DNA of 24,379 bases from the IMG/VR virus record IMGVR_UViG_3300009071_000069, positions 1 to 24,379 of that record; one strand, given 5' to 3'. The stretch is from a virus. The first letter of the stretch is position 1, and every line of letters begins with the position of its first letter. The notes below the pieces were generated by a model. That model did not search any database, was not told the origin of the DNA, and worked only from the letters and a program-made list of their open reading frames with translations. Positions 1 through 15,892 of this stretch are shown piece by piece. The position numbers were made by a program, and so were the translations under genes.

Positions 1-19
1 CTTCAAAATTTAAATTCAT
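1..19 (-). other. Possible start of a further minus-strand gene, cut by the window edge
   Basis: After the PLP-enzyme stop, minus-strand 60-1 contains one ATG (19-17) whose frame (MNLNFE) is open to the edge. There is no clear ribosome site, and an earlier in-frame pair of ATGs at 40-35 runs into a stop after a few codons. It may equally be intergenic sequence. Confidence 0.2.
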
Positions 20-60
20 ATCACTGTTAATGACATGATCATTTCGCTGATAAGGTATAT

Positions 61-828
61 TCACGATCCTACATTCCAAAAAAGTGCGCCAGGTGACGCA
101 TGATCCTTGATAAACTCCCACGCTTTTGCGTCGTAGGTTGGTGCGGACGGGAATGGGGGCAACACTTTGGTTGCTTTGTTGAAGGCGTATTTCGACTGGT
201 AGGTCTTAGCCTTTCCGTACTCGCCGCTATGTCCCACACGGACGCAGTGAAAGGAGGATCGTGGCCACGCGAGTTGTAGTCCTCTGGTGAGTGTTCCACT
301 TGATCCTACCGTCCAGACTTCATCTGGAGATACATCCATGCTACGAGCAACCCGAATGATGGAAGCGATAACAGTAGGATGGTCAAAACCAATAGGAAGT
401 AATCTGCGATGCTTTGGATCTTCTGCAACATAATCTCTTGCCCTTTTTTCAGTAACACTAAGCATTCCGTTTGGAACCCAGTGCATTATAGCACCTGCTT
501 CGATTGCTTGCAACTGATAAGAGTGTCTTTTTTCAACAGCACGATCTGCCATGAAGATCACTGCCTTCTTATCATACCTGCCACACAGATGTGCAAGTGA
601 GATCTGAGCATAACCAGTGGCAGGTGAACTACCATATACCCACTCCTTGATCTCGGGTTGTGACTGGATCAGGTGATCTGCAAATCGCATCTTCGATCCA
701 CCACCGATGAGATCGTCGCGGACGACGAGGATCCCCTCATGCTCCTCTACGACGGGAGCAGGGAGGGAGTCCGTCCAATCACCAATCATCTCTAAGTAAT
801 CTTCTGCTGTCTCTGTGAATAGACTCAT
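61..828 (-). CDS. Fold-type-II PLP-dependent enzyme-like protein
   Basis: A 255-aa protein resembling the fold-type-II PLP family (tryptophan synthase beta, ACC deaminase and threonine synthase type). VVRDDLIGGGSKMRFADHLI (35-54) offers Lys46 as the probable cofactor-binding lysine, YGSSPATGYAQISLAH matches the substrate-binding loop, and VWTVGSSGTLTRGLQLAW resembles the glycine-rich phosphate-binding loop. It is shorter than the usual 300-400 aa but shows both halves. The substrate is unknown. PLP enzymes occur in some phage DNA-hypermodification pathways, but no partner gene for that is visible here. The gene overlaps the gene 46 stop (ATGA) with a weak ribosome site. Its ends are about 57-63% G+C in sampled lines while gene 46 is about 30%, suggesting later acquisition. 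Confidence 0.75.
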   Translation of the reverse strand: MSLFTETAEDYLEMIGDWTDSLPAPVVEEHEGILVVRDDLIGGGSKMRFADHLIQSQPEIKEWVYGSSPATGYAQISLAHLCGRYDKKAVIFMADRAVEKRHSYQLQAIEAGAIMHWVPNGMLSVTEKRARDYVAEDPKHRRLLPIGFDHPTVIASIIRVARSMDVSPDEVWTVGSSGTLTRGLQLAWPRSSFHCVRVGHSGEYGKAKTYQSKYAFNKATKVLPPFPSAPTYDAKAWEFIKDHASPGALFWNVGS

Positions 829-2543
829 TTTTTCTTAAGAGAACTGAAATTGTTCTTTTTCTCTACGACAACTGTTTTATCAAACTTATCAGACATTTGA
901 TCTAACTTATGGGAAATTACAACAACGCTTCCAGACTTCTTGAGTGAGTAAAGATTTCTCATCAATTCTTCTGTGCCAGATGCATCCAACGAAGAATCAA
1001 AAATTTCATCAAGAATAAGTAAATTGCAGTTTGCACTATTCTTTACTTTGGCAACTTCTCTCCACGCAAACAACAAAGCAAGATCAATTCTTAATTTTTC
1101 ACCTTCACTAAAACTCATATAACTAAATTTATCTCGATGCCTGCTTTTAATCGTTTCTTCAAATTCTTCGTTTAGTTCAAACTTGGTGAAGAAATTCATA
1201 TTTGTTAAAAATGTATTGATAACTTTATTGATTAACGGAAGATAATGCTTAATAATTTTAGATTTAATACCACTGTCTTTTAAAAGAGAAACGCAAGAAG
1301 AGTATTCCATCTTTTCAATATCATACTGAGACAAAGATTCTTGTAGTGTTTGTTTTTTAATCTCAAGTTCTTCTAAATTTTTGTTTTCTTTTTCTAATTC
1401 ATCTGCATCTTCGTGGGGTTTTTGTAACTCTTTCTGGAGATCAATCAACTCTTTTTCATATCTTTCAATCATAGTTAGATTGATGTTATATTTTTCTTCT
1501 AATTTTTTATTGCTACTATGATCTTCTAGTCTGGAAGAAAGGAATTTTTCACACTTACCTAAAGAATCTTTTGCAGTTTCAAGGTTTTTTTCCAGTGCTT
1601 TTAGTTCTTCTGAAAGACTACTTATTTTATTTTCTCTAAATGTTACATCAATTGACTGTTTACATACTGGACAATTTTCATTATCCTCATAAAAATCAAC
1701 ACTCTTTTGAGACGAAACAATCTTATTGATAAAGGATTTTTCTTCTGTTCGAAGAGTAACCTTTTTATCCTTGAGAGATTCTATTTCGGTTTCAATGTCA
1801 CCTGAAATCATAGATGATAGAATTTCTTTCATCGTATCTCTGCTAGAAAAAATAGATTTGTTTATCTTTTCTATGTTTTCTTTGATCTTTGATTCCGAAC
1901 TCTTTTTTTGATCTTGTATTTTAGCGATGAATTTCTTCTGGTATTCGATTTTTTCTTCAAAACTTTCAATTTTACGGTTCGTCTCATTTATTTTCTCCTT
2001 AACAAAGGAAAGTTTTCCCTTTGCAATTTGATTCATGTTTGAAAACACATTGATATCAAGAATATTTTCTATAATATTTCTTCTATCTGCTGGGGACAAC
2101 TGTAAGAACGGAACAAAAGATGATCTACCAAGAATTACCACTTGAGTGAATGTCTTGTAGTTCATCTTAATTATCTGTGATTCAAGAAATTCTTGATAAT
2201 CTTTAGCCTTTGCATTTTGATCTAAAAGTTTTCCGTTCTTGTGAATTTCAAAAATCTTAGGAGAAAGACCTCTCTTAATAAAATAATTATTTGTTCCGAT
2301 AGAAAACTCAAGTTCCACTAAACAGTTTTTAGCATTAACTGTATTTACGAGTTGAGGTATATTAATTTTTCTAAATGGTTTTCCGTATAAAGCAAAGGTG
2401 ATTGAGTCGAGGTAAGCAAATGACTTACCTCGACCATTCAACCCAGATACTAATATCGACTCATTTTTTGTAAAATCTACTTCTGTGAAGTAATTACCAA
2501 AAGAACCAAAATTTTTAAATTTAAGTTTCTTGAATGTTATCAT
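825..2543 (-). CDS. 46: Recombination endonuclease subunit gp46 (SbcC/Rad50-like ATPase)
   Basis: ABC-type ATPase that binds gp47 and controls its nuclease. 572 aa (T4: 560). Order of elements: Walker A GLNGRGKS (34-41), coiled coil, zinc hook CPVC (Cys291, Cys294), returning coiled coil to about 400, ABC signature MSFSEGEKLRIDL (about 475-488), Walker B LLILDEIFD (about 508-516) and the H-loop VVISHKLDQM. The protein is complete. GAGG lies 6 nt before the ATG, inside the end of the SET-domain gene. The stop overlaps the next ATG (ATGA), so all five genes of the operon are translationally linked. Confidence 0.97.
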   Translation of the reverse strand: MITFKKLKFKNFGSFGNYFTEVDFTKNESILVSGLNGRGKSFAYLDSITFALYGKPFRKINIPQLVNTVNAKNCLVELEFSIGTNNYFIKRGLSPKIFEIHKNGKLLDQNAKAKDYQEFLESQIIKMNYKTFTQVVILGRSSFVPFLQLSPADRRNIIENILDINVFSNMNQIAKGKLSFVKEKINETNRKIESFEEKIEYQKKFIAKIQDQKKSSESKIKENIEKINKSIFSSRDTMKEILSSMISGDIETEIESLKDKKVTLRTEEKSFINKIVSSQKSVDFYEDNENCPVCKQSIDVTFRENKISSLSEELKALEKNLETAKDSLGKCEKFLSSRLEDHSSNKKLEEKYNINLTMIERYEKELIDLQKELQKPHEDADELEKENKNLEELEIKKQTLQESLSQYDIEKMEYSSCVSLLKDSGIKSKIIKHYLPLINKVINTFLTNMNFFTKFELNEEFEETIKSRHRDKFSYMSFSEGEKLRIDLALLFAWREVAKVKNSANCNLLILDEIFDSSLDASGTEELMRNLYSLKKSGSVVVISHKLDQMSDKFDKTVVVEKKNNFSSLKKK

Positions 2544-3252
2544 TCTTTTCCTCTATTCTCGAACGAAACTTTTTTTGTTGACATGAGGAACAACCACCTT
2601 TCTTACCAGATGCATTTGCTGTTCCAAGTTTACTCTTAATCGTATCCCCTGTCAAGTCATAATATTCCTTTGGAGTTATCCCTGAAGGTCCTATTCCATT
2701 TTTTGGATATCCAATAGTAACTACTTCTCCTCGATCTAGATCTCGGAGTGCATAAATTCTAAGTACTCGCATCATTGAGTCAAACTGAACATAAGCGTTT
2801 GGTGTTGCTGAGGGACCATATGCAAGAGCATTACCGAGAGGTAAAATTACATGGTTACCAACTTCATCTGACTTATAAACAGCATCATCTTCGGGTAAAG
2901 TCCACATGAGATATGCTGCAACCTTATCTCGTAATGCCATAAACATGTCATCCCTGCGAGACTCCATGACATAGTAGTAGCATTCTTCTAAAAGATCTCC
3001 TCTTTTAATTTCTTTTTCGGTTACTACTTGAGATAACCCAGTCGGGTTAACCGTGAGACGAACAGAACTTGCAAAGTTTTCTTTGTTTGGAACAATTTTA
3101 GTTGTTCCGCTCTTCACTCCGTGGATTGAAGATTCCATTCGATACGCACTTGCAGCCTTTTTAATTCTTTCAACTTTGTCAGACGAATCAGTATCTACCT
3201 TTGCAGATTCTGGAATTTCTTCTTCGGTGACAGATATTTCTTCACTCTTCAT
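2521..3252 (-). CDS. SET-domain protein (putative lysine methyltransferase) with a C-terminal CxxC tail
   Basis: A 243-aa protein between 47 and 46. Residues about 62-183 fit a SET domain: a first strand with SQVVTEKEIKRGDLLEECYY, then VILPLGNALAYGPSATPNAY (136-154, the place of the NHSCxPN knot motif, here not exact), VLRIYALRDLDRGEVVTIGY (163-182, matching the usual I-A-x-R-D-I-x-x-G-E-E-I-x-x-x-Y ending). SET proteins use S-adenosylmethionine to methylate lysines; the substrate is unknown. Residues 1-60 are charged and flexible, and the tail holds GGCSSCQQKKFRSR with Cys221 and Cys224. GGAGAG lies 8 nt before the ATG. It overlaps gene 47 by 11 nt and gene 46 by 23 nt. Activity is uncertain because the knot motif is degenerate. 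Confidence 0.72.
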   Translation of the reverse strand: MKSEEISVTEEEIPESAKVDTDSSDKVERIKKAASAYRMESSIHGVKSGTTKIVPNKENFASSVRLTVNPTGLSQVVTEKEIKRGDLLEECYYYVMESRRDDMFMALRDKVAAYLMWTLPEDDAVYKSDEVGNHVILPLGNALAYGPSATPNAYVQFDSMMRVLRIYALRDLDRGEVVTIGYPKNGIGPSGITPKEYYDLTGDTIKSKLGTANASGKKGGCSSCQQKKFRSRIEEKNDNIQET

Positions 3253-4303
3253 TTGTTATACTCTCCATGTAAAGGGTTTTCATTATTCTTTTTAACGAAT
3301 CTTTATTCAAATCAGTTTCGATTAAATCAATTTCTGTGCTTATAATTGTTAATGTATCTTGTGCAAGATCAACTTTTTCTTCTTGATCTAAGTCCGCAGA
3401 AAAGTCTTCGATCACAGAAATGTCAGCAACATCTAGTTCATATAAAGCATCAATGAAAGATTCAAACAAACTTGACTTGGTTTTATTCTCTACAATAATT
3501 TTAACATATCTATTTTTCAGTTTATCAGTTAATTCTGATTGAAGATCTTTGAGTGCTTTCTTATCCATGTCGTCATAGATGTATGAATAGAACATCTTAT
3601 CTGGGTTCTCTACAAATTCAAGATCTCTGGTTTCGCTGTCAAGAACATGAAAACCTTTCATGTCATGAAGATCGCTAAATGTAATTTGGTATTGTGTCCC
3701 AAGATAATGAACATTGTTCTTTTGACTTTTTGTATGAAAGTGTCCGCTCAAAACTTTTTCAAACCGTCTCAGCGGTTTATCAGACATTCCTCCATTAAAA
3801 TTCATACCTCGCATAACTTCATAACCTTCTAGTTCAAAATGCCCTCCTATAATAGAGCATCTGCAAGACTTAAGAAAATCTAAAGTGGAGTCTTTATTCT
3901 CACTGTTAATCCAAGGAATTAATCCAACAAGCAATCCTTCATAGTCTAATGTTACGGGAGACTCATGAATAATGATGTTATCGTAATTAGAAAGAAGTTC
4001 TTTAGGGGAATTTACCTTGTTAGTATTTTTATAATAGGTGTCATGGTTGCCCAAAGAAAGATTGATGGTGACACCCATCTCCTGTAAAGGATCTAAAATA
4101 CTTTTTCGTACTTTCTGTAATGTACTAAAATTAATATATTTTCTGCGATCAAAAAAATCACCCAAATGAATCACTTCTTTTATTTCATTTTTTTTGATAT
4201 ATGGAAAAAATACATTTTCATAAAATGAAATAAAATAATCTAGAAACAATCCAGAATCGTTTCTAGCACCAAAGTGCGAATCATTCAAAACACCTATTTT
4301 CAT
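3242..4303 (-). CDS. 47: Recombination endonuclease subunit gp47 (SbcD/Mre11-like)
   Basis: Metallophosphoesterase nuclease that works with gp46 in resecting DNA ends for recombination-dependent replication and host DNA breakdown. 353 aa (T4: 339). All five metal motifs are present: NDSHFG (Asp8, His10), HLGDFFDRR (Asp49), LGNHDTY (Asn86, His87), GGHFE (His155) and SGHFH (His188, His190). The C-terminal ~120 residues are the capping and gp46-binding part. The start overlaps the gene 55 stop (ATGA) and the 3' end overlaps the next gene by 11 nt. Unlike T4, where 47 and 46 are separated by other small genes, a SET-domain gene lies between them here. Confidence 0.96.
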   Translation of the reverse strand: MKIGVLNDSHFGARNDSGLFLDYFISFYENVFFPYIKKNEIKEVIHLGDFFDRRKYINFSTLQKVRKSILDPLQEMGVTINLSLGNHDTYYKNTNKVNSPKELLSNYDNIIIHESPVTLDYEGLLVGLIPWINSENKDSTLDFLKSCRCSIIGGHFELEGYEVMRGMNFNGGMSDKPLRRFEKVLSGHFHTKSQKNNVHYLGTQYQITFSDLHDMKGFHVLDSETRDLEFVENPDKMFYSYIYDDMDKKALKDLQSELTDKLKNRYVKIIVENKTKSSLFESFIDALYELDVADISVIEDFSADLDQEEKVDLAQDTLTIISTEIDLIETDLNKDSLKRIMKTLYMESITNEE

Positions 4304-4818
4304 TTCTTACCTTTTTTCTTTGAACTAGATCCAAATTTTTCAATATCTTTATCTGTTAGTTCAAATTCCTTTTTCAGTGCATCATCAATATTTTCTTCTT
4401 TCTTTTTCTCAAAATAGTTTTCTTTATACCAAGATAAAGTGGAGTCTGGATGTTGCTCCATCAGTTTATACTTAATATACATTTGCTTCTTTTCCTTTTC
4501 TATTCTTCGAAGAAAGGCAAAGTAAGTAATTTGAGTAAAGTAAGAAAATGGATTCTTAGATTTATCTGGATCAAAGTTGTGTGCGTACATTACACAGTTT
4601 TCTATCGCATCACTTATCATATCGTCTCGAAAAGGATACTTGATAAAGTTACCTTTCTTCGATAAGTTTTCAGCAATGCTCATAAAGCATTCTCCAATAT
4701 AGTTTGTTATTGGAGGATTCTTTTCGTCTGCGTTTTGTGCTTCACGAACACCCTTAATCCAGTCTGTCATACTTTCATAAAATTTAGTGTTATCAATATA
4801 GTGCGTGGGTTTTTTCAT
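4300..4818 (-). CDS. 55: Late transcription sigma factor gp55
   Basis: Phage sigma factor that directs host RNA polymerase to late promoters (TATAAATA -10 boxes, no -35). 172 aa (T4: 185). The N-terminal YIDNTKFYESMTDW lines up with T4 YVNNKELLQAIIDW, supporting the start at 4818. The conserved core is SIAENLSKKGNFIKYPF, DDMISDAIENCVMYAHNFD followed by NPFSYFTQITYFAFLRRIEK, corresponding to sigma region 2. The C-terminus is Ser/Lys-rich (FGSSSKKKGKK) and lacks a copy of the T4 clamp-binding ending SLDFLYE. There is no ribosome site in the predicted transcript, which should begin at the ATG. The TGA stop overlaps the gene 47 ATG (ATGA). Confidence 0.93.
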   Translation of the reverse strand: MKKPTHYIDNTKFYESMTDWIKGVREAQNADEKNPPITNYIGECFMSIAENLSKKGNFIKYPFRDDMISDAIENCVMYAHNFDPDKSKNPFSYFTQITYFAFLRRIEKEKKQMYIKYKLMEQHPDSTLSWYKENYFEKKKEENIDDALKKEFELTDKDIEKFGSSSKKKGKK

Positions 4819-4824
4819 ATACGA

Positions 4825-4852
4825 ATTTTACATCCTAAAAAGATTTTGTCAA
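4825..4852 (-). promoter_or_regulatory. Sigma70-type promoter of the gene 55 operon
   Basis: On the minus strand TTGACA (4852-4847), a 16-nt spacer and TAAAAT (4830-4825), then TCGTAT and the ATG at 4818. With standard geometry the transcript starts at the A of the ATG. This is the only good promoter before the 55-47-SET-46-PLP operon and implies transcription by host RNA polymerase before late genes are on. Confidence 0.85.
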
Positions 4853-4866
4853 GTTTTTACTTGACA
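4847..4866. repeat. Perfect 8-bp inverted repeat holding both divergent -35 boxes
   Basis: TGTCAAGT (4847-4854), TTTT, ACTTGACA (4859-4866). Each arm contains one TTGACA, the left arm on the minus strand and the right arm on the plus strand, so the dyad couples two back-to-back promoters. It could also be an operator for a dimeric regulator. Confidence 0.85.
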
Positions 4867-4888
4867 GTTTTTTGTTCACGATTATAAT
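4861..4888 (+). promoter_or_regulatory. Consensus sigma70-type promoter on the plus strand (antisense direction)
   Basis: TTGACA (4861-4866), a 16-nt spacer and TATAAT (4883-4888): both hexamers are perfect. Expected start is near 4895. No convincing plus-strand gene lies downstream; the transcript would run antisense into the 3' end of the Sm-like gene and uvsW. A ribosome-site-like AAAAGGAG at 4905-4912 is followed by stop codons, not by a start. Confidence 0.7.
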
Positions 4889-4914
4889 CTCTGTGTGGAG
4901 AGAGAAAAGGAGTA

Positions 4915-4937
4915 ATAAGTTAACTAAGCTTACTTAT
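4915..4937. repeat. Short imperfect dyad at the end of the Sm-like gene
   Basis: ATAAGT (4915-4920) and ACTTAT (4932-4937) flank 11 nt, spanning the Sm-like gene stop. The stem is short and AT-rich with no U-tract, so I do not call it a terminator in either direction. I saw no better terminator between the Sm-like gene and gene 55. Confidence 0.25.
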
Positions 4938-5652
4938 AGTCTTCGTTAGATAAATCATTATCCCAATCAGTCCACCTATTACCATATTCTGGATTATCTT
5001 TGTCTTCAATAGTTGATTCATCGCTAATTTCTTCACTGTTCATTTTATTGTTAGGTCCATAATACATTTCTTCAAGCATATCGAAGATCTTCGAAGAAAT
5101 TATACCATCTTCGAACAAACCTTTCAAATCATCATACGATAAATCCATATTCAGATAGATTCTATCTTTACCATTAGGCTCAGGATTATTTAATTCGTTT
5201 GAGTCGAATGCTTCTAATTTTTCTTCTAAAGCATCCAGTTCATTAAAAATGTCATTATTGTTAGTTGGTGGAAATTTAAACATTTGCTTTATGGTGTCTT
5301 CCAGACTTTTTTGATTCATCGCATCTGGGTCCATTTTAGTTACTTTGCCTGGTTTGTGAGGCTGAACATCTAGATCATGCTTTGCTTTATCATACATGGT
5401 CACGACTAATTGATCTGGTGTAAAAATAGAGGTGATATGAGATTCTTTAATTTTTGCTTGAACATCGTTAGTGTATGACATCCAGTCTCTTAAGAATACT
5501 ACTTCCTTTTGAGACACCATAGTGTTCATCATAGTTTGAGTTTTAAATATCATTGGACGATCAATTAAAATCTTGTCCTTTTCTCGACCTTTTATATTTC
5601 CTATTATTTCTTCGCCGCTACTTAGTTTAATGATTCTATAAGAAGTCTTCAT
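4930..5652 (-). CDS. Sm/Hfq-like N-terminal domain protein of unknown function
   Basis: A 240-aa protein from the ATG at 5652 (MKTSYRIIKLSSGEEIIGN), preceded by GGAGAG 8 nt upstream and one base after the uvsW stop; an in-frame ATG at 5703 lies inside uvsW and has no ribosome site. Residues 1-50 (YRIIKLSSGEEIIGNIKGRE, then KILIDRPMIF) resemble the strand pattern of Sm-fold proteins, in which a conserved Gly follows two strands. Residues 90-240 are acidic and low-complexity with no recognised domain, including a Met/Asn/Glu-rich tail. An RNA-binding role is inferred from the fold guess only. It is the last gene before the divergent promoter region, and a plus-strand promoter would transcribe antisense to it. 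Confidence 0.7.
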   Translation of the reverse strand: MKTSYRIIKLSSGEEIIGNIKGREKDKILIDRPMIFKTQTMMNTMVSQKEVVFLRDWMSYTNDVQAKIKESHITSIFTPDQLVVTMYDKAKHDLDVQPHKPGKVTKMDPDAMNQKSLEDTIKQMFKFPPTNNNDIFNELDALEEKLEAFDSNELNNPEPNGKDRIYLNMDLSYDDLKGLFEDGIISSKIFDMLEEMYYGPNNKMNSEEISDESTIEDKDNPEYGNRWTDWDNDLSNEDYK

Positions 5653-5653
5653 G

Positions 5654-7144
5654 TTATTCTCTCCGAATCGGTATGGCAATTGACTCATAATTAAAACCTT
5701 CATTAGTATATATTTTAATTCTTTCTTCTAAATGTTTCAGAGTATGGTTTTTGTAACTTTTATACTGAAGATCATCACCGATATCGTATAGTTTTGCAAT
5801 ATCTTTTGTGGAAGAAGTTCTTAGACCTCTTCCTATAGATTGAAGTACTCTGATTACAGACTTAGAAGGAAAAGCAAAAATGATGTTGTGGATGTTCCTT
5901 ATATTTATACCAGTTGAACATGTCCCATATGAAGCAACTAAAATAGAATTCTCTTCAGTGTCTATAATCTTTCGGATCATTTCTCTTTCTTCAACATCTT
6001 TATTACCGTGGATAAAGTACACAGGGTTGTCCGAGGAGTCCCTCAGAGACTCGTAGAGAGGTTTGCCGTGTTTCTCCACGAAATTGAACAGTAGAAGAGT
6101 GTTTCCTTTCAATTTAGTTGCTAAATCAATAATGAACTTGTTTCTTTTCTCCGAGGATACAAGCCAATCAACTTCTTCTTGATACTTCGCTCTTTTAACT
6201 TCCTTACAGTCTTCCTCGTCATACTTTAGAGTAATGCAACTAATTTTAAGTTGAGAAAGAATCTTCTGTTCCATTAGTTTTACGGTAGATGTTACCTTTA
6301 TGGTAGGTCCAAACAAACCCTCAATCATAAGTTTGTGTGTTTTCGTATTGTCCAAAGTACCAGTTGTCCCGATACGAACATAGGCATTTTTTATTTTAGT
6401 AAGGAGTTCTACCAGCGACTTTGCTTTATATAAGTGACACTCGTCACCAAATACCCCTGCAACATCATCAAAATATGATTCGGGCATCTTGTACAAACTT
6501 TGCCATGTAGATACCACCACTCTTCTTTTGGTTTCTTTCTCCTTACCGGAAAAGATCATGTGAATGTCTTCTTCATTAAAAGAGTTATCATTGACTGAGT
6601 ATTCTAAAAAGTCAGACTTCATCTGAGAAGCAAGTCCGGTTGTTGGAACGATCACTAAGAACTTTTTATCTTCTGGAAAACAAGAAAGATAATACCTTAG
6701 AAGGCAATAAATGATAAGAGACTTGCCGCTTCCGGTAGGAGATAATAGAAGACACCTTCTGTTCAGTAATGCTTCACGAATAGCCTTTACTTGATGATCG
6801 TGTAATGTGATCGGATCTTTACCATTGCTTATGCTTAGTTTAGAAAGAAATGTATCGATATCATCGCATGGTTGTTTTTCTTCTTTATGTAAATCCAAAA
6901 CATAAGGATAATTTCTATCTTCGCAAAACTTCTTTACATGAGATGAAAGTCCCGCATAAATTGTGCGATTGAAAATATTAAACAGGCGTATTTTACCGTC
7001 CCAGTATTTGTTCTTGTATGCAGGGGTATATTGGTAATTTGGAACCATGAATGTAAAGTATTCGCTCAGTTCCTTTGCAAACCCTTTATCACAATCAACT
7101 TTAAGGTTTACTGCATCTATTTGTTTTATTTTAAAATCACTCAT
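5654..7144 (-). CDS. uvsW: UvsW recombination/branch-migration helicase
   Basis: Superfamily 2 helicase that remodels branched DNA and R-loops and takes part in the switch from origin- to recombination-dependent replication. 496 aa. The N-terminal domain has the family feature PAYKNKYWDGKIRLFN (41-56) followed by YAGL. Motif I is SPTGSGKSLI (Lys141), motif II DECH (234-237), motif III GTTGTL (259-264), later IHGNKD (378-383), SYGTCSTGINIRN (405-417) and motif VI QSIGRGLR (435-442). All helicase motifs are intact. The start overlaps the uvsY stop (ATGA), and the end provides the ribosome site (GGAGAG) for the next gene, so uvsY-uvsW-Sm-like form a coupled unit. Confidence 0.96.
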   Translation of the reverse strand: MSDFKIKQIDAVNLKVDCDKGFAKELSEYFTFMVPNYQYTPAYKNKYWDGKIRLFNIFNRTIYAGLSSHVKKFCEDRNYPYVLDLHKEEKQPCDDIDTFLSKLSISNGKDPITLHDHQVKAIREALLNRRCLLLSPTGSGKSLIIYCLLRYYLSCFPEDKKFLVIVPTTGLASQMKSDFLEYSVNDNSFNEEDIHMIFSGKEKETKRRVVVSTWQSLYKMPESYFDDVAGVFGDECHLYKAKSLVELLTKIKNAYVRIGTTGTLDNTKTHKLMIEGLFGPTIKVTSTVKLMEQKILSQLKISCITLKYDEEDCKEVKRAKYQEEVDWLVSSEKRNKFIIDLATKLKGNTLLLFNFVEKHGKPLYESLRDSSDNPVYFIHGNKDVEEREMIRKIIDTEENSILVASYGTCSTGINIRNIHNIIFAFPSKSVIRVLQSIGRGLRTSSTKDIAKLYDIGDDLQYKSYKNHTLKHLEERIKIYTNEGFNYESIAIPIRRE

Positions 7145-7575
7145 TGACCGTTTGTAAATTTAAGCCAATCAATTGCTGAACGAATGTTCCACTGTCGATT
7201 GGAAATTACCTTAATAATGCTATCTAAATAATCAACCACTGTTCTTCTGTACTGAATTCTATTATAAATTTTTTGTATATCTTCATCTGATTCCATGAAC
7301 TTATCAATATCGGTTTTTAGAATTGAAAGTTCAAAAGGTTCCCACTCAAATTCAGAGAGTTCTTCTTCTGATAATTTTCCGGTATAGTAAAGCCACCTAT
7401 ACTTTTTAGTGATCTTATACTCACTCTCTAATTTAGAGAGTATTAGTTTTTCGTCGGAAAGGAAATTTAAATATTTTGAATGTAATTGGGGGGTTCTGAG
7501 AGATTCTGTGTCAAGTTCTGTTTCATTAATATTAAGATCGACTTCTACCATCTGTCGATAATCACTTAGATTCAT
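7141..7575 (-). CDS. uvsY: Recombination mediator UvsY
   Basis: Loads UvsX recombinase onto gp32-covered single-stranded DNA. I use the ATG at 7575 (MNLSDYRQM, 144 aa; T4: 137 aa) because AGGAG lies 6-7 nt upstream in the end of the previous gene, whose TAG stop is one base away. An in-frame ATG at 7602 would add nine residues and overlap more. Family-like features are the N-terminal acidic helix, LHSKYLNFLSDEKLILSKLE (T4: MLYSKWLNKHSSIKKEMLRIE), KYRWLYYTGKLSEEEL (T4: LDYYSGRGD) and the C-terminal VVDYLDSIIKVISNRQWNIR followed by SAIDW. Position directly before uvsW agrees with the conserved order. No uvsX is in this window. Confidence 0.9.
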   Translation of the reverse strand: MNLSDYRQMVEVDLNINETELDTESLRTPQLHSKYLNFLSDEKLILSKLESEYKITKKYRWLYYTGKLSEEELSEFEWEPFELSILKTDIDKFMESDEDIQKIYNRIQYRRTVVDYLDSIIKVISNRQWNIRSAIDWLKFTNGQ

Positions 7576-7576
7576 G

Positions 7577-8140
7577 CTATACTCCTGATTGCACAATTTC
7601 AAAATTAGAATAATTAAATGTCACTGATCCCAATAAAGGGGATGCTGAAGGTTCGAGTGAAGTAAACTCTAGAGGACTTAACACTGTAGGAAAGGCATCC
7701 ACAAAAACAATTCTGACTTTTTCCTGATATGCACTGTTTTTAACTGAAATGGTAATGTCAGATGTATGAGACTCTCTGGGTAAATTGGTCGTATCTGTTA
7801 GGAACGCCATAGATTCCATCCACCTAAACAACTCCTGATAACCCAAAAATCTTTCATCAATACCAAATCCTACAATAAGAGGGGAAAATTCATAACCACT
7901 TCCCGGAAATGCAGGTGCTAAACCTAAAGTTGTTGGTTGAGTCAATTCACTAAAAGAAAACTGAGGAAGAGTAACACTCTGAACAAATCTTTGAAAGTTA
8001 GGAACTCTAGGTATTTCCAGTTGGAAATAATTCCTACCAAGATAATTGTTTTCTGTCTTACCATCATATGTTACACCATATGACTTATATTGAATGTCCG
8101 GCATTTCCGGAATTTCGCGGGTGATATCAGAATCAGACAT
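7577..8140 (-). CDS. Tail-tube-like protein in the gene 3 position
   Basis: A 187-aa protein right after gene 23. In related marine T4-like phages this place is usually annotated gp3 (tail completion/sheath stabiliser). The sequence reads like a tail-tube-fold (gp19/gp54-type) protein: NYFQLEIPRVPNFQRFVQSV followed by TLPQFSF near 35-65, AFPGSGYEFSPLIVGFGID near 75-95, then YQELFRWMESM. I cannot decide by eye between a gp3-like terminator and a tube initiator. GGAG precedes the ATG by 7 nt. The terminator and late-promoter-like box upstream make it the first gene of a new unit; uvsY follows after one base. The overlap of tail and recombination genes in one operon fits late expression. Confidence 0.65.
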   Translation of the reverse strand: MSDSDITREIPEMPDIQYKSYGVTYDGKTENNYLGRNYFQLEIPRVPNFQRFVQSVTLPQFSFSELTQPTTLGLAPAFPGSGYEFSPLIVGFGIDERFLGYQELFRWMESMAFLTDTTNLPRESHTSDITISVKNSAYQEKVRIVFVDAFPTVLSPLEFTSLEPSASPLLGSVTFNYSNFEIVQSGV

Positions 8141-8160
8141 GATTAACTCCAGTATACTAT

Positions 8161-8168
8161 TATGTATA
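8161..8168 (-). promoter_or_regulatory. Late-promoter-like box TATACATA for the gene at 8140
   Basis: Minus-strand TATACATA differs from the T4 late consensus TATAAATA at one base. It begins immediately after the terminator U-tract and 20 nt before the ATG at 8140; the expected transcription start leaves a short leader containing TGGAG. Position after a terminator makes a promoter here logical. One mismatch in AT-rich DNA is weak evidence alone. Confidence 0.55.
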
Positions 8169-8170
8169 AC

Positions 8171-8201
8171 AAAAAACGAGGGGGAGTAAAACTCCCCCTC
8201 G
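8171..8201 (-). terminator. Rho-independent terminator after gene 23
   Basis: On the minus strand CGAGGGGGAGT, TTT, ACTCCCCCTCG forms a perfect 11-bp GC-rich stem with a tiny loop (8201-8177), followed directly by TTTTTT (8176-8171). It lies 30 nt after the gene 23 stop and separates the head operon from the tail/recombination genes. Confidence 0.95.
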
Positions 8202-8230
8202 CTTCGTTCAGATCTTCTATTTTTGTGTTA

Positions 8231-9649
8231 TCAGTTGGAACCGTTACCGTGAAGGTTCTTGACAACGAAGAGTCTGTAGTACTGGTTACCACCGGCAGTA
8301 AGAATGTCGGTGTTAGTTGCGAACGGATTGCTTACGACTCCGTATCGAGTCTTGAATCCGATCTTCGGCTGGAAGGTGTTCTCACCAACCGCACGCACCA
8401 TCTGGAGTGGGACATACGGGCAGTAGAAGAGTCCGGCGTCATATGGGGATGTACCCTTGTAACCGACACAGACATGGTTTTGTCCAGTGGCGACATAAGG
8501 ATCAACATAGACGCGGATCTTACCGTTGAGAAGACCAGCGAAGGTGTTACCAGTATCATCAACATCTAGGCTCTGGTTGAGAGCGGGTGAGATGTTGAGG
8601 AATCCACCCATTGCGAGGGCTGAAGCAACATCGGCAGAGACGATGATGAAGTTACCCTTACCGCGACGAGTTTCCTTGGCGATCTGGTTGCATTCACGCT
8701 CAATTTGGAACATAAGTCCACGGAAGCGTTCTGCTGACCATCTACCATCGGAGTCAACTTGGAGGTCGTACATACCGGAGACTGCACCATCAGCAGCACC
8801 TGCTGCGGCAAGGTCAGTTTGGGTACAACCGATTTCAGCATTGAAGTAGACATTTCTGATGATCTCTCGGTTGATTTCAGACAGAATCTCAGTGCTAAGG
8901 ATGTTAGCAAGTTCTGTTTCGGCATCGAGTCCGTGAACAGCCTTGAGATCCTGAGCGAGTTCAGTACTGTACTCAGCCTTGAGGGCCCGAGTTCTTGCTT
9001 CAACAGAAACTCTTTCGATGGAGAATGCCATCTGGTTGAAAGAACCACCGGCACCGCCGAGTCCTTCAGCATTAGCAGCACTAATACCTTGGAAGTCAGT
9101 ACCGAAGACAGCAGCACGAGCAAACTCACCAGCGGTGAGAGTTACACCGGGGGTGTCGCTGACGAATGTAACACCACTACCGGCGTTTTCGGCTGCACCC
9201 GCAGTTGTACCACCCTTACCTGAGAACTTGGCGAATGCTTCTTGGAAGAGTGCTTCCTGCGACGATCCTTGTGAATCATACTTGCTCTTCATCGCAAAGA
9301 TGAGTCCTGTTGGTGCGCTCATTGGCTGAACACCACAGATGTCGTATGCCATAAGGTTAGGCATTGAACGACGGATCAGGCTGATAAGCACTGGGTCGTA
9401 ACCAGCAATGCTACCTGCTTGATTAGCAGCCTGGGTTACGCTAAATCCACCACCGAGTGAGTTGGTGGGGGCCTCAGCGAGGTACTGCTGCTTCATGGCA
9501 GTTTCTTGGTTCTCAAGAAGAACTGCGGTGACTTTTTTCTTGTATGAATCGCCGATTGTGTCGAACGAGTCGTGATCTAGTACTGGGTTCCACTTTTCTA
9601 CGAGTTGATCGTAGGGCTGTGTACCGTAATTTTCGAATTCAGATGACAT
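8231..9649 (-). CDS. 23: Major capsid protein gp23
   Basis: HK97-fold major head protein, 472 aa (T4: 521). Strong family matches: SLIRRSMPNLMAYDICGVQP followed by M near residue 85-110 (T4: VRRAIPNLIAFDICGVQPM), LKAEYSTELAQDLKAVHGLD in the centre and FIIVSADVASAL later. The expected gp21 cleavage site is visible as QQYLAE|APTNS after Glu59, so about 413 residues should remain in the virion. The gene is richer in G+C than its neighbours, which produces several long but meaningless open frames on the other frames. The ribosome site AAGGAG lies 8-9 nt before the ATG. A strong terminator follows 30 nt after the stop, closing the head operon. No gp24-like vertex paralogue is seen in this window. 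Confidence 0.98.
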   Translation of the reverse strand: MSSEFENYGTQPYDQLVEKWNPVLDHDSFDTIGDSYKKKVTAVLLENQETAMKQQYLAEAPTNSLGGGFSVTQAANQAGSIAGYDPVLISLIRRSMPNLMAYDICGVQPMSAPTGLIFAMKSKYDSQGSSQEALFQEAFAKFSGKGGTTAGAAENAGSGVTFVSDTPGVTLTAGEFARAAVFGTDFQGISAANAEGLGGAGGSFNQMAFSIERVSVEARTRALKAEYSTELAQDLKAVHGLDAETELANILSTEILSEINREIIRNVYFNAEIGCTQTDLAAAGAADGAVSGMYDLQVDSDGRWSAERFRGLMFQIERECNQIAKETRRGKGNFIIVSADVASALAMGGFLNISPALNQSLDVDDTGNTFAGLLNGKIRVYVDPYVATGQNHVCVGYKGTSPYDAGLFYCPYVPLQMVRAVGENTFQPKIGFKTRYGVVSNPFATNTDILTAGGNQYYRLFVVKNLHGNGSN

Positions 9650-9693
9650 TTTGGATCTCCTTTGATCTCTGGCGTTAGCCTTATTTTAGTTTT

Positions 9694-10635
9694 TCAAGAT
9701 TCGTAAAGTTCTCTGCTTTTTGCTTGTCTATTTAACGCTTCGACATATTGACCGATTGGACTGTCTGTGTTTTCGTTTAAAACTTTAGCGTTAGAAGCAA
9801 CTTCTTCTGTTTCTGTTGATGCTACTGTTGGTGTTGAATTTCCGAAGTAACTTTCCTTCAGGATGTTGAGTTTATTTGTGAATGACTCTTCATCCTCGAA
9901 ATCAAGGTCTTCGACCATTTTGCCAAACTTATCGATTTGAACATCGCTAAGATCGTTGGCAACATCACCGAAGAGTTCAGACTTTCGGTAATTCTCGACA
10001 AGACTGTTTAACTCAATGTTAGCATTAATTGCTTCGTTGAGTGTGTCTGTCATTTCTTCGTTTTCTTTAATCATTTCTTCGAGGACATCAACCTTTTCGT
10101 CGGGAATGTCGATGAAGTTTGATTCGAATAGAGTCTTGAGTCCACCGATGAATGATTCGGCTACTTCAGTGCGAAGACCCTTATCAACGGCAACTTCATT
10201 CTCTTTAACCCACTCTTCGACGACATAGTTGAGATAGTCGTCGATTCGTTCGGTTAGTTCTTCCTTGAAGGTTTCAAGTTCAGTTTCGAAGGACTCTTCA
10301 ACTGCTGAACGGAGTTCTTCTTCAATAAGAGAAACTCTTTCACCTACAGCGGCTTCAAAGATAACTTCGGCTTTGTCCTTGAATTCTTCAGAGAGATCTT
10401 CACCACTGAAGAGTGACTCAATATGTTCCTTGAAAGGAACTGGAGCAACTACTTGTTCTGGTGTTTGAATTTCTGCTGAAGCGTCAGAAGGTTTAGGTGC
10501 AATAGACCCTCGGTTCTGATCTGCGGTTCCGTCACCTGCAACGGCTGTTGCAATCTTGGCGCCTTTTCCGCTTGTATCTTGGTAAAGAGCATCGCTCTCT
10601 ACGCTTGATGTGTTTAATGTGTTATTCGATTCCAT
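9694..10635 (-). CDS. 22: Prohead scaffold protein gp22
   Basis: Main internal scaffold of the prohead, removed by gp21 during maturation. The protein has 313 aa (T4: 269) and is strongly acidic and almost entirely predicted helical, with a scaffold-like segment HIESLFSGEDLSEEFKDKAE followed by VIFEAAVGERV near residues 90-120 and later heptad-like helices. The N-terminal ~80 residues are low-complexity (Ser, Ala, Thr). A late promoter TATAAATA and a GGAGGT ribosome site within a 14-bp palindrome lie immediately upstream. Identification rests on composition, position between 21 and 23 and the conserved segment. Confidence 0.92.
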   Translation of the reverse strand: MESNNTLNTSSVESDALYQDTSGKGAKIATAVAGDGTADQNRGSIAPKPSDASAEIQTPEQVVAPVPFKEHIESLFSGEDLSEEFKDKAEVIFEAAVGERVSLIEEELRSAVEESFETELETFKEELTERIDDYLNYVVEEWVKENEVAVDKGLRTEVAESFIGGLKTLFESNFIDIPDEKVDVLEEMIKENEEMTDTLNEAINANIELNSLVENYRKSELFGDVANDLSDVQIDKFGKMVEDLDFEDEESFTNKLNILKESYFGNSTPTVASTETEEVASNAKVLNENTDSPIGQYVEALNRQAKSRELYES

Positions 10636-10642
10636 TTTCTTT

Positions 10643-10656
10643 AACCTCCGGAGGTT
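10643..10656. repeat. 14-bp perfect palindrome overlapping the gene 22 ribosome site
   Basis: AACCTCCGGAGGTT is its own reverse complement. On the minus strand it includes the ribosome-binding sequence GGAGGT (10649-10644), 8 nt before the gene 22 ATG, and it lies exactly where the late transcript should begin. As RNA it could form a 5-bp stem with a CCGG loop. Confidence 0.8.
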
Positions 10657-10663
10657 TCTAGGA

Positions 10664-10671
10664 TATTTATA
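10664..10671 (-). promoter_or_regulatory. Late promoter TATAAATA for gene 22 (and 23)
   Basis: A perfect match to the T4 late -10 consensus on the minus strand, in the 69-bp gap before gene 22 and 28 nt upstream of its ATG. The predicted start is near 10657. The 8-mer occurs by chance a few times in AT-rich DNA of this length, so the intergenic position is the real support. Confidence 0.75.
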
Positions 10672-10704
10672 TTTCTTGTAATTTCTAAATCTAAACCGTC
10701 TACG

Positions 10705-11355
10705 CTACCCATTCAGACCACTAATAAACTTATTAAAGATATTGATGGTCTTTTCTTCTAATTCTTTTTTGGATGCTCTTTGAATCTCTTTTTGGTATTC
10801 CGCAATTTTCTTTTCTTTAAGTAGTCCATTGTCCCATACCCACTCTGCACCTTCCATAATACCATTAACAAAGGCACTTGGAGCGGAAGGATCTGCTACA
10901 ATGTCAACTGCGGATAACATAAAGTCTTGTTGGACTTCATTAATTCCACCTCTGTCTTTGAGCGATCCCATACCTCTAGAGGAAACTCCTAATTGAGCGC
11001 CCTCATCGATTAAACTCTTTACGATTTTACCCATAGGAGTTTCCATTACTTTTGCTTTTCCGTAACAATCATTACCTCTGAAATTTAATTCAGTGATCAT
11101 ATGAGAAACTCTATCTAAGTTAACAGTTGGACCTTGTGGGTGGTTTAATTCACCCAAAGCCCTTTTCTTTTCAACTAAGTCACAGTGATATCTTTTGACT
11201 TCTTTTTCTAGAATTGAATATGGGTAAATTCTACCGTTTCTATTTTTTTGTTCTGCTTGCATAAAAATACCTTCGATGTAGTAATTCTTTTTACCATCTT
11301 CGGTTTTTTCTGTTACCAAGCGAACATCTTCGTTCATTTCAGTAATGAGTTTCAT
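10705..11355 (-). CDS. 21: Prohead core protease gp21
   Basis: Serine protease that matures the prohead by cleaving the scaffold and the N-terminus of gp23, 216 aa (T4: 212). The herpesvirus-assemblin-like catalytic features are visible: His72 in GELNHPQGP, the nucleophile Ser in LGVSSRGMGS (Ser125/126), and DIVADPSAPSAFV downstream. The N-terminal GIFMQAEQKNRNGRIYP is also typical of the family. The C-terminal ~40 residues are a charged helix. The start overlaps the previous stop (ATGA), with AAGGAAG upstream. Its substrates, gp22, gp23 and the presumed core proteins, are encoded on both sides. Confidence 0.95.
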   Translation of the reverse strand: MKLITEMNEDVRLVTEKTEDGKKNYYIEGIFMQAEQKNRNGRIYPYSILEKEVKRYHCDLVEKKRALGELNHPQGPTVNLDRVSHMITELNFRGNDCYGKAKVMETPMGKIVKSLIDEGAQLGVSSRGMGSLKDRGGINEVQQDFMLSAVDIVADPSAPSAFVNGIMEGAEWVWDNGLLKEKKIAEYQKEIQRASKKELEEKTINIFNKFISGLNG

Positions 11356-11717
11356 TTGTTGTGCTTCCTTGTTTTTCTAAGGGCTTCTTTTTTACTCATT
11401 CCGCTTCTCTTCATTCTAGTCATCATGATGTCTGCAAAATCACCGTCTCCATCACCATCTTTGTCGTCACCTTCTTCACTTCCTTCTTCTGTATCATCTT
11501 CCTCTTCTGTATCATCTTCCTCTTCTTCATGCTTTTTATCTTTTTTCTTTTCTAGCATGTAGGAGAAGTCATTCTCGTAAACGGAATCAATTAATCCCTT
11601 TTTCATTTCGTCCATTTGATCATTTACTTTATCAGAAAGTGCTTGATCTACGGTATCAATAACTGCTTTTGCGTTATCATCAAATATATTTTTTAGTATT
11701 TCTGATGCGTAATTCAT
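11352..11717 (-). CDS. Acidic prohead core protein (gp67/gp68-like position)
   Basis: A 121-aa protein with three parts: a helical N-terminus (MNYASEILKNIFDD), an acidic centre (EEEEDDTEEEDDTEEGSEEG, then DKDGDGDGDF) at about residues 64-95, and a basic C-terminus (RMKRSGMSKKEALRKTRKHN). Highly acidic small proteins here in T4-like phages are prohead core components, which fits. The acidic part contains two perfect copies of an 18-bp unit. Both ends overlap neighbours by ATGA, and AAGGAG lies 10-11 nt before the ATG. Confidence that it is a gene is high; the exact family is uncertain. Confidence 0.68.
   Translation of the reverse strand: MNYASEILKNIFDDNAKAVIDTVDQALSDKVNDQMDEMKKGLIDSVYENDFSYMLEKKKDKKHEEEEDDTEEEDDTEEGSEEGDDKDGDGDGDFADIMMTRMKRSGMSKKEALRKTRKHNK
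11487..11522. repeat. Two perfect tandem copies of an 18-bp unit
   Basis: TTCTGTATCATCTTCCTC occurs twice head to tail (11487-11504 and 11505-11522), in frame with the acidic core protein, encoding the repeated EEDDTE block. Probably a slippage or duplication product that lengthens the acidic region by whole codons. Confidence 0.9.
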
Positions 11718-12397
11718 TGGGATTCTTCTCCTTCGTCGAGTTTCTGAATTGCTTTATTGACAAAGTTTATCATTCTTTCGAATGATTCTTCGTTAAGAGT
11801 AATTTCATCTCGGAAGGAAATTTGATTATCTCTTGCAAGTGAATCATGAACCTTTGCAATATTTTCAGCCATTTCGCTTTCGATTGTGACTTCTGTTCCG
11901 TCATCAAGAACCATTTCAACCGAACCGTTTTCGATTGCTTCTTGTAGATCATTTCCGAGTTCAAAGAATGGAATGTAGATATCTACGCTTTCTACTAAAG
12001 TATCATATACAACTGAGACCATATCTTCGTGATCAACAGATTCAAGATAGAGTCTATTTCCAATTTGCTTGACGCAAGATTCGCACATCCCCTTATCCAT
12101 GAGATTCTTCTTTGCTTTCTTTGCTTCATCAACGGAATTGAATCTGTAATCGTTAACTTCGCTTTTTATTCTTTCCCATCTATTAGAAAGAACTTCATTG
12201 CTTTCGTCTACAGTTTCTTCGACTTCTTCTGGTTTATTCCAGACACCCTCTGGTTGTAATACATTTTTTCGGATTCCGTCGTGCATAACAGAGACTTTTT
12301 CATTAACTCTGTCAACGAATTCCTTAACAAAACTATCGAGGAAGCCTTCTTTGTCTTCTTCGATTGCTGAGTTTATCATGGGTGAAAGGTTTTTCAT
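11714..12397 (-). CDS. Putative prohead core protein (between gp20 and gp21)
   Basis: I do not recognise this 227-aa protein by sequence. It occupies the place of the small prohead-core genes 67/68 in T4 and is predicted to be acidic and mostly helical, with Glu/Asp-rich stretches (EEVEETVDESNEV) and a C-terminal helix (FERMINFVNKAIQKLDEG). Residues near 100-125 contain one CxxC (KGMCESCVKQIGNRLYLES) inside what may be a small folded domain. GGAG lies 6 nt before the ATG, overlapping the end of gene 20. The stop overlaps the next ATG (ATGA). A role as internal scaffold cleaved by gp21 is inferred only from position and composition. Confidence 0.62.
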   Translation of the reverse strand: MKNLSPMINSAIEEDKEGFLDSFVKEFVDRVNEKVSVMHDGIRKNVLQPEGVWNKPEEVEETVDESNEVLSNRWERIKSEVNDYRFNSVDEAKKAKKNLMDKGMCESCVKQIGNRLYLESVDHEDMVSVVYDTLVESVDIYIPFFELGNDLQEAIENGSVEMVLDDGTEVTIESEMAENIAKVHDSLARDNQISFRDEITLNEESFERMINFVNKAIQKLDEGEESQ

Positions 12398-12400
12398 TTC

Positions 12401-13966
12401 TTACTCCGTTGGTTGAGGTGGTTCTTGATCCACCATTTGCGGTTCTGCTGGTTGTTGATCTAACTCGTTCTGAAGATCTTCTATCTCTTCATCAGTCATT
12501 TTTAGAATATTCTTTCTGACATAATCCTCAGAAAAGAATTGTCCAACAAATGGCTGTACATTATTTAGCATATTCAGCCTTTCGGACAATATTTCATTTT
12601 CCTTAAGTTCGTCGAAGTAAGTATCTCTATTGAATACCACTCTTATATCATCATTAATAATTTGCCAATCTTGGGGGGTAACGATACCCTTGAGTATCAA
12701 CTGAGTTCTTAGAAGACTCATGAACATCTTTTGAAATCTAACCTGAAGTCTTTGAATAAATTTCTGAAATTTGACTTCATCTCGTGTAATTTCTGAAGAC
12801 TTACCCATGTTAAAACCGTTATCAGTCTCTAATCTACTGACAGGAACATTCAAAGATCTATAGAGTTTCTTTTGAAGATACTCGACATCATCCATTTGTC
12901 CTAAGTTTTGTCCACCGGGGAGTGTTTGAATTTCAGTTCCTCTACCACCTTCTCGTCTTGGTAGCCAATAATCTTCCAACATTGACAAATGATCTCTGTC
13001 ATCTTTAACAGTTCCGGTTGCTTTGTCGTAAATAACTTTTGTTCTATATCGATTCATCAACTCTCGTAGATATTGTTCCGCTTTTTGTTTCGGAAGATTA
13101 CCAACATCAATATAAAAGATTCTTCGTTCGGGGGCCCTAGATATTCGATAAATTACTACAGCATCTTCTATTTGACGAAGCATATTAAGTGGTCTAATTG
13201 CTTTGTGAAGATAACCAATTGCTTGTTTTGTGTTACCATCAATCATACCAGAATGAACATAGCAGATAGAATCGGTTGTTATTCTTATACCAGCCCTGTT
13301 GGTTTGGTAAAGTGTATTTTGATCTGTGTTGGTGTAGATAAAATATTCATCTACCTTTTCTATAATATCCAGTTTTGATGTGGGATTTGCTGAAAGAGCC
13401 CCTTCTTTGGGTTTCTTTTTAACATTTCTAATTCGTTTAATCTTTGTTGGATCAATAGGTCGAAGTTCGACAATACCTTTTTCTGGATGTTTGTCATCAA
13501 TAATTATATGGTAGTAAAGTTTACTATCGATATACCATCTTCTATAAATATCATGCGCTCTAAAATTAAAATCTAAAAGTTTTACAAGATTACTAAATTC
13601 TTTATGTATTTTATTTTTAATTATCTCGGAAACTTTAAGTTCGTCTAGATTTAATTTTACTGGGTGAAAATCAGATCCTGGCACAACAGATTCATTTATA
13701 ATATCTTCGATTGCTTGATCGACCTCTGGATAGAGAGACATTCCTCTATATTGCTGTATCAGTGCGTTTTCGTTTTTAACTTGTCCGGCAAAGTCTACGG
13801 AAGTTCCGAAAACACCGCCCGCTTCAAATGTATAAGTTCCATCATATGTTTCGGGTGCAACGAAAGACTCGGGATCATTCTGGATACCCAGGTCTAGTGG
13901 GTCCAGAATGGTTTTCCCGATGTCTTTCTTACGCCCGATTGTAAAACCAAAAATATCAATTGCCAT
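12401..13966 (-). CDS. 20: Portal vertex protein gp20
   Basis: Dodecameric portal at the unique head vertex, the DNA entry channel and docking site for gp17 and the neck. The 521-aa length matches T4 (524). Family signatures are YRGMSLYPEVDQAIEDIINE near residue 75, SRAPERRIFYIDVGNLP in the centre, and GQNLGQMDDVEYLQKKLYRS followed by LNVPVSRL near 345-380. The C-terminus is Pro/Gln-rich (QQPAEPQMVDQEPPQP). GGAG lies 8 nt before the ATG. The 40-nt upstream spacer contains no good TATAAATA box. It ends 3 nt before the next gene. Confidence 0.97.
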   Translation of the reverse strand: MAIDIFGFTIGRKKDIGKTILDPLDLGIQNDPESFVAPETYDGTYTFEAGGVFGTSVDFAGQVKNENALIQQYRGMSLYPEVDQAIEDIINESVVPGSDFHPVKLNLDELKVSEIIKNKIHKEFSNLVKLLDFNFRAHDIYRRWYIDSKLYYHIIIDDKHPEKGIVELRPIDPTKIKRIRNVKKKPKEGALSANPTSKLDIIEKVDEYFIYTNTDQNTLYQTNRAGIRITTDSICYVHSGMIDGNTKQAIGYLHKAIRPLNMLRQIEDAVVIYRISRAPERRIFYIDVGNLPKQKAEQYLRELMNRYRTKVIYDKATGTVKDDRDHLSMLEDYWLPRREGGRGTEIQTLPGGQNLGQMDDVEYLQKKLYRSLNVPVSRLETDNGFNMGKSSEITRDEVKFQKFIQRLQVRFQKMFMSLLRTQLILKGIVTPQDWQIINDDIRVVFNRDTYFDELKENEILSERLNMLNNVQPFVGQFFSEDYVRKNILKMTDEEIEDLQNELDQQPAEPQMVDQEPPQPTE

Positions 13967-14006
13967 TCACATTACTCCTAAAGTATTTCATAAAAAAAGT
14001 TTTAAA

Positions 14007-14567
14007 TCAACTAAATGTTTGAGCAGCGATCGAGTCCGCACCGACAATTCCCGGAGTGTACTTGATGTAATCATATCTGATGGTTGCATTAAATGTTAAC
14101 AGAGCGTTTTTCTCGGCTGCGTTCAATTGAACCGGACCGATACCTGTTAACCAGCAACCAACAAGTTCAAATTCTTTAATAGGAAATGGATTTGGACCAG
14201 ATTGATCTAGGTGTTGAATTGTCCAGTTTCCTCGATTACCTGTGTCGAAACCACTAGTTGCATCATTTGTTTCATGATTGTTAATTTTATTTTGCCAATC
14301 TTGAAGAGCATCATATATTTCTGAATTCCTATCATCAAGAATTGTTATATTCCATGGCATGTAATCTCTATCACCGGGAACATAAACGGTTCTACCCCTA
14401 TAGTTTACAGGAATTTCTCCTATTGCAATCTCTGGCAGATTGAAAGCATATGCATGAAAAACATCAAGTGCAGTACCATCAGGTAATTTTGCTATAATAT
14501 CAAATCGATTGGGTCTTGTTCCCCCAAAGAAATTGGTTTTAAATGTGTTAATGCTATTATTAGCCAT
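14007..14567 (-). CDS. 19: Tail tube protein gp19
   Basis: Subunit of the inner tail tube, 186 aa (T4: 163). Recognisable features are FKTNFFGGTRPNRFDIIAKL at the N-terminus, AFNLPEIAIGEIPVNYRGR, VYVPGDRDYMPWNITILDD and the central ALQDWQNKINNHET, a pattern typical of the gp19 family. It has a strong ribosome site (AGGAGGT, 8 nt before the ATG) and lies 19 nt after gene 18, so sheath and tube are probably co-transcribed from the promoter upstream of gene 18. The stop is followed by a 40-nt spacer before gene 20. Confidence 0.93.
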   Translation of the reverse strand: MANNSINTFKTNFFGGTRPNRFDIIAKLPDGTALDVFHAYAFNLPEIAIGEIPVNYRGRTVYVPGDRDYMPWNITILDDRNSEIYDALQDWQNKINNHETNDATSGFDTGNRGNWTIQHLDQSGPNPFPIKEFELVGCWLTGIGPVQLNAAEKNALLTFNATIRYDYIKYTPGIVGADSIAAQTFS

Positions 14568-14586
14568 TAGTAGTTACCTCCTGAGA

Positions 14587-15852: not shown

Positions 15853-15892
15853 TTTTATCTCCTTGAGAATAAACTCTATCTGCTGTATTTAG

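Follow-up and report, generated by a model that had tools for sequence, protein, structure and literature searches.

A putative antisense early promoter with a covarying start-site hairpin is conserved beside gene 55 of marine T4-like phages

Opposed σ70 promoters packed into a short stretch of DNA are known from Escherichia coli, where occupancy of one promoter can exclude the other, and these bidirectional promoters share a –10 element, with starts about 10, 18 or 23 bp apart, commonly 18 (PMC12825309 and work cited there). In T4, origins consist of a promoter and an unwinding element, and their transcripts form R-loops, which UvsW unwinds; oriE apparently uses an early-mode promoter (PMC3016281). 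The early promoters of T4-like cyanophages are σ70-like, of the TTGACA/TATAAT type, and are presumably read by unmodified host polymerase, and a single theta origin was predicted in Syn9 (PMC2984593). An antisense RNA, CfrI, is known at psbA in the T4-like cyanophage S-PM2 (cited in PMC2984593, PMC5931967).

The promoter pair beside gene 55 resembles each of these systems in part. It likewise holds opposed σ70-type promoters in a short stretch but, unlike those of E. coli, they stand back to back through their –35 boxes, with separate –10s rather than a shared one and predicted starts 77 bp apart. One of the two directions runs antisense, and its RNA is predicted to stay untranslated. As in T4 oriF, oriG and oriE, the element is predicted to give rise to a promoter-borne transcript. 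It is of the same type as the early promoters of T4-like cyanophages and would form a subclass of them, set apart at the start by a fixed leader and a hairpin whose arms covary and, in the gene-55 copy, by the antisense direction. In contrast to CfrI, the gene 55 element is nearly universal in its family and carries a start-site hairpin. No description of an antisense promoter element at gene 55 was found in a literature search. The Kyanoviridae rank with the most abundant viruses of the sea. For the start of their replication and the timing of their late transcription, an antisense promoter kept almost universally next to the gene of the late sigma factor offers one precise place to test.

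The window analysed here is a 24,379-nucleotide stretch of the viral record IMGVR_UViG_3300009071_000069 (Table 1). Read directly, positions 4847–4866, TGTCAAGT-TTTT-ACTTGACA, contain two perfect –35 boxes facing outwards. The initial annotation had described a divergent promoter built on this inverted repeat at the boundary with the gene 55 operon, and direct reading bore out its geometry, namely both perfect –35 boxes, the 16-nt spacers and good –10s, as well as its location, with gp55 on one side and the uvsW operon ending on the other. Every gene of the window lies on the minus strand, among them gp55, the GC_139-family gene, uvsW, uvsY and gp23, and the operon formed by the last four ends at the gap beside gp55. 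Therefore, the leftward promoter belongs to gene 55, whereas any transcript of the rightward promoter would be antisense to the genes it enters. The same synteny of the GC_139-family gene was found in P-HM2, S-BM3, Syn9 and S-PM2. The predicted +1 positions are 4818 for the leftward promoter and G4895 for the rightward one.

Table 1. Coordinates of the features at the gene 55 boundary of the window
Feature	Coordinates	Strand	Details
Inverted repeat, 8 bp	4847–4866		Left arm TGTCAAGT 4847–4854, loop TTTT 4855–4858, right arm ACTTGACA 4859–4866; holds both –35 boxes
Leftward gene 55 promoter	4825–4852	–	TTGACA 4852–4847, 16 nt, TAAAAT 4830–4825; 11/12 match
Rightward (antisense) promoter	4861–4888	+	TTGACA 4861–4866, 16 nt, TATAAT 4883–4888; 12/12 match
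Hairpin around predicted start	4889–4902	+	CTCT 4889–4892, loop GTGTGG 4893–4898, AGAG 4899–4902
Purine-rich tract	4897–4912	+	GGAGAGAGAAAAGGAG; directly 3′ of hairpin
gp55, late-transcription sigma factor	4300–4818	–	phrog_234, E 1.4e-55
T4-GC_139 family gene ("methylamine utilization" in annotations)	4930–5703	–	phrog_471, E 3.7e-11; would be entered antisense by the rightward transcript
uvsW helicase	5654–7144	–	phrog_16, E 1.9e-93; upstream gene of the operon faced by the rightward promoter

When window positions 1–20000 were scanned for promoters, the rightward and leftward promoters ranked first and third among 72 promoter-like sites, and one 12/12 promoter was found where about 0.03 would be expected in the shuffled window. 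Only one of the two promoters counts as an independent surprise, because any palindrome with TTGACA in it brings a second –35 along; inverted repeats that are perfect over arms of at least 8 are themselves not rare in the window (8 against 3.7 expected). The dyad was also considered as a terminator and rejected, since its stem is weak, with three G-C pairs, and its T run is found only on the plus strand, where no gene arrives.

Searches with gp55 retrieved 326 upstream regions, of which 249 were kept once near-identical ones had been removed. TTGACA in the rightward orientation was present in 202 of these 249 relatives, against 17 expected, and its reverse complement in 86, against 21 expected. 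Alignment on TTGACA alone caused a –10 (T-A-x-A-x-T; TAnnnT) to emerge 16–17 nt downstream, followed by T-G near +1 and then by a purine-rich stretch, after which conservation faded within about 50 nt. A formal promoter search located the element in 226 loci. The remaining 23 comprise the two outgroups, T6 and Vibrio phage VH7D, both of which lack the rightward promoter, 15 loci with a promoter farther off or with a weaker –35 (such as TTGATT-17-TACACT, or TTGCTT-17-TATATT in Melnitz), and six with none. The 226 and the 15 loci, some of the latter assigned by eye, therefore place the rightward geometry in about 241 of 247 marine loci. No feature of the locus is more constant than this consensus, TTGACA-16/17-TAnnnT, which in every case runs antisense to the uvsW operon, and the strict pattern occurs once per genome, at the gene 55 spot, in HTVC008M, P-HM2, S-BM3 and P-TIM68. 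With a TTGACA-like –35, a TAnnnT hexamer, 16–18 nt spacing and conservation in relatives, the rightward promoter has the properties of the σ70 type. Taken at the level of sequence, a conserved antisense promoter very probably exists beside gene 55 in marine T4-like phages, and it is better conserved than the leftward one.

The leftward promoter, for its part, is mostly present in the relatives, often with a –35 shared with the rightward promoter: of the 226 loci, 184 have a match of at least 10/12 in the stretch that separates gp55 from the element, against 8.4 expected. The distance from its –10 to the ATG shows a sharp peak at exactly 6 nt (28 loci, a group that includes L005, L009, L010, L003, L007, L192, L224 and others), and in the window the predicted +1 coincides with the A of the gp55 ATG. 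At this spacing, seen in the window and in many pelagiphage-like loci, the gp55 mRNA should be leaderless; in the window it probably is. A leaderless mRNA for the late sigma factor is predicted in the window's group and the pelagiphages, while cyanophages have leaders of 20–37 nt. Another site with strong likeness to a promoter (TTGAAA-17-TATAAT, its –10 preceded by TG) lies at 5127–5099 on the minus strand, within the GC_139 gene and about 280 bp upstream of gp55, and points the same way as gp55.

The divergent pair at the boundary between the uvsW and gene 55 operons is therefore real and conserved among relatives, but the same does not hold for the dyad. An arm match of at least 7/8 was found in just 8 of 226 loci, which runs against the expectation that alignment of relatives would show the dyad conserved while its flanks drift; it is kept in the sets closest to the window (L005, L009 and L010), nearly kept in L075 and lost in most others. 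What recurs instead is closeness of the two –35 boxes. One –35 common to both promoters was found in 79 of 161 loci with TTGACAA, against 14.8 expected; this shared box is CTTGTCAAG read both ways, where the reverse TTGTCA serves a leftward –10 at the right distance. About 40 further loci have –35 boxes 2–10 bp apart. The 8-bp dyad of the window is one local form of a close or shared –35 arrangement.

This closeness is what favours the bidirectional switch put forward in the initial annotation, in which one polymerase would exclude the other and gp55 output would be set against the antisense transcript. In the window, as in roughly half of the relatives, the boxes leave no room for two polymerases, and competition at strong bidirectional promoters has been shown in E. 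coli (PMC12825309). However, the two –35 boxes may coincide or stand more than 50 bp apart, a range that rules out occlusion as the general function. The gap exceeds 30 bp in 41 loci, and in about a dozen other genes separate gp55 from the element; the rightward promoter is nevertheless kept in both, and the dyad is not conserved. Mutual exclusion of the two promoters is therefore plausible but not universal, and the switch is improbable as the explanation of the pair.

The initial annotation had recognised the promoter pair and overlooked three features of the rightward promoter: its antisense direction, its better conservation and a hairpin at its start site. Directly 3′ of the rightward –10, two complementary arms surround a conserved TGT centre. 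Watson–Crick helices of 5 bp or more were found in 49 of 201 distinct relatives, against 7.6 (maximum 12) when arms were swapped between relatives, a control in which the kinship of the sequences is only partly accounted for. There are 50 different stem sequences of at least 4 bp around the conserved TGT; among departures from pairing, T.G is in excess (41 vs 19) and C.A does not occur, and of the two strands the rightward one gives the better fold in 141 of 188 cases. Such a pattern points to a covarying hairpin surrounding the rightward start site. A hairpin in the gp55-sense RNA was rejected, since the fold of that strand is poorer and the excess is of T.G, not of C.A. If transcription starts about 7 nt after the –10, the 5′ arm would lie in the discriminator, and it would be the non-template strand of the DNA, and not the RNA, that folds into the hairpin; a start 1–2 nt after the –10 would instead yield an RNA hairpin. 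An alternative helix, between the –10 and the start region, showed a mild excess (27 vs 8.7 at 5 bp), and in TACACT lineages (L099, L094, L081 and S-H34) it pairs the –10 ACACT with AGTGT of the start region. Downstream, purine content at +10 to +20 reaches 77% over the 226 loci, and A+T content at +20 to +50 rises weakly (71–75% vs 67%), with no clear unwinding element.

The RNA from the rightward promoter is probably not translated: an ATG-started ORF of at least 25 aa within 60 nt was found in just 13 of 226 loci, and a small peptide was rejected as its product, since there is no consistent start codon or ORF. An untranslated leader and a covarying hairpin could suggest a small trans-acting regulatory RNA with the hairpin and purine tract at its 5′ end, which would also agree with the better folding of the rightward strand and with the excess of T.G but not C.A. 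Nevertheless, no common intrinsic terminator was found within 1.5 kb in the 226 loci (19 candidate bins vs 9 shuffled), Rfam gave no match in the window or in 18 relatives, conservation fades within about 50 nt and, with the usual start site, the 5′ arm falls outside the RNA. A classical small RNA was rejected on the first three of these grounds, and there is little likelihood of a small trans-acting RNA. Less probable still, and indeed very unlikely, is an operator for a dimeric repressor, whether at the –35 dyad, as previously proposed, or at the start-site palindrome. The copies within one genome have stem and loop oddities in common, as the operators of one regulator would, but recent duplication also explains this likeness; the –35 dyad is not conserved, and a two-fold DNA site would not predict the asymmetry of the start-site stem by T.G (41) and not C.A (0).

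Sixteen complete genomes were scanned with a weight matrix. The gene-55 copy ranks first in Syn9 (where it is at 123.7 kb), S-PM2, P-SSM2, S-CREM1, S-H9-2 and S-CAM9, none of which was used for the matrix. Extra copies were found that read in the direction of the genes. Those of S-PM2 and S-H9-2 follow the gene for the baseplate lysozyme, those of S-CREM1 and S-CAM9 precede clusters of tRNA or small genes, and S-RIM8 and Syn9 have theirs in regions of small genes. In several of these sense copies the hairpin is closely followed by a ribosome binding site and ATG, with the ribosome binding site where the purine-rich tract lies. Since extra copies head sense early operons in several cyanophages, the rightward promoter belongs to a promoter class. 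Sense-early-operon copies were seen in S-PM2, S-CREM1, S-H9-2, Syn9, S-RIM8, S-CAM9 and ACG-2014f (L422, L423, L424, L414/L495, L496, L497, L498), and some extra copies are followed by a late-promoter-like TAAATA motif. The oddities common to the copies of one genome are CTGCC in S-CAM9, TTGTAGTGTCA in S-H34 and AACACTG in Syn9, and the ACG-2014f copies have a TTGCCA –35 in common. In S-H34 (NC_070965.1), four copies with the leader TTGTAGTGTCA lie at about 12242, 37301, 79605 and 100314. Beyond the –10, two of the four are alike for about 35 nt, a likeness suggestive of recent copying.

The position of the gene-55 copy is kept independently of what it faces. Where genes are inserted between the element and gp55, as in L021, L022, L193, L233, L242, L301 and others, the element remains where the uvsW operon ends; in S-SSM7 (L088), a carbamoyltransferase gene replaces uvsW before GC_139 and the antisense promoter is kept; and the element persists in pelagiphage loci with no detected GC_139 homologue. 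So there is no fixed antisense target. The leading but unproven and tentative reading is that the rightward RNA serves as an origin transcript, and it is inferred because the place is kept and not the target, because the element lies at an origin-like GC-skew minimum and because of the match to T4 initiation. Back-to-back early promoters of the host σ70 type stand at the uvsW/gene 55 operon boundary of the Kyanoviridae, the leftward one predicted to give the gp55 mRNA and the rightward one an RNA antisense to the 3′ end of the uvsW operon, probably untranslated. On the origin reading this RNA would anneal as an R-loop and prime the leading strand, as in T4. Two features would help the RNA–DNA hybrid to form: the hairpin at the start site, in the strand that is displaced, and the richness of the leader in purines. 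The stronger version, a family-wide origin on an antisense early promoter whose hairpin stabilises the open, RNA-hybridised state, a type not described before, must be regarded as rather unlikely.

The detrended cumulative third-position GC skew was computed for 15 complete genomes, which share synteny and are not independent. In 14 of them its value at the element belongs to the lowest 16% of the genome; the mean rank is 0.09 and the maximum is usually distant, which an origin would predict. In some genomes the minimum lies up to 32 kb away, and one genome gave no signal; the minimum also coincides with the boundary between the structural and replication modules, so that gene-class codon usage could cause it. 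Plain GC skew showed no switch at the element in the two genomes considered. Of the features of a T4 R-loop origin, a promoter whose transcript would run through the origin is present and conserved at the level of sequence. On the other hand, copies of the same class elsewhere head ordinary sense operons, which speaks against origin-specificity, and the element differs from T4 origins in being antisense and in having no clear A+T-rich unwinding element. Dependence on MotA is not possible either, as the Kyanoviridae lack this protein, which T4 oriF and oriG use (PMC2984593), and this counts against an origin.

A close rival to the origin transcript, somewhat unlikely in its own right, is that polymerases coming through the uvsW operon would meet transcription from the antisense early promoter and the antisense RNA that it makes, so that early transcription on the uvsW and gene 55 sides would be kept apart, by position rather than by action on a target. 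This interference would fit the strong promoter match and the constant placement at the operon boundary facing the uvsW operon, also after insertions on either side, and antisense RNA has a precedent in this phage group in CfrI (PMC2984593). Nevertheless, it leaves the start-site hairpin and the GC-skew position unexplained, and no interference is needed at the ordinary operons that sense copies of the class stand before. Returning to the origin transcript, T4 oriF is situated in the uvsY region, and the gene 55 element lies about 2.5 kb from uvsY. Even if the element is not an origin, an untranslated antisense transcript at this boundary would be under selection across cyanophages, pelagiphages and methylophages; the interest of the locus lies in the antisense promoter, almost universal and structured at its start, and not in the dyad.

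Two other features of the window were recorded, both on the minus strand: a 243-aa ORF between gp47 and gp46 (2521–3252), with no PHROG match, and a strong intrinsic terminator with a 15-bp stem and 8 G-C pairs (8173–8205), just downstream of gp23.
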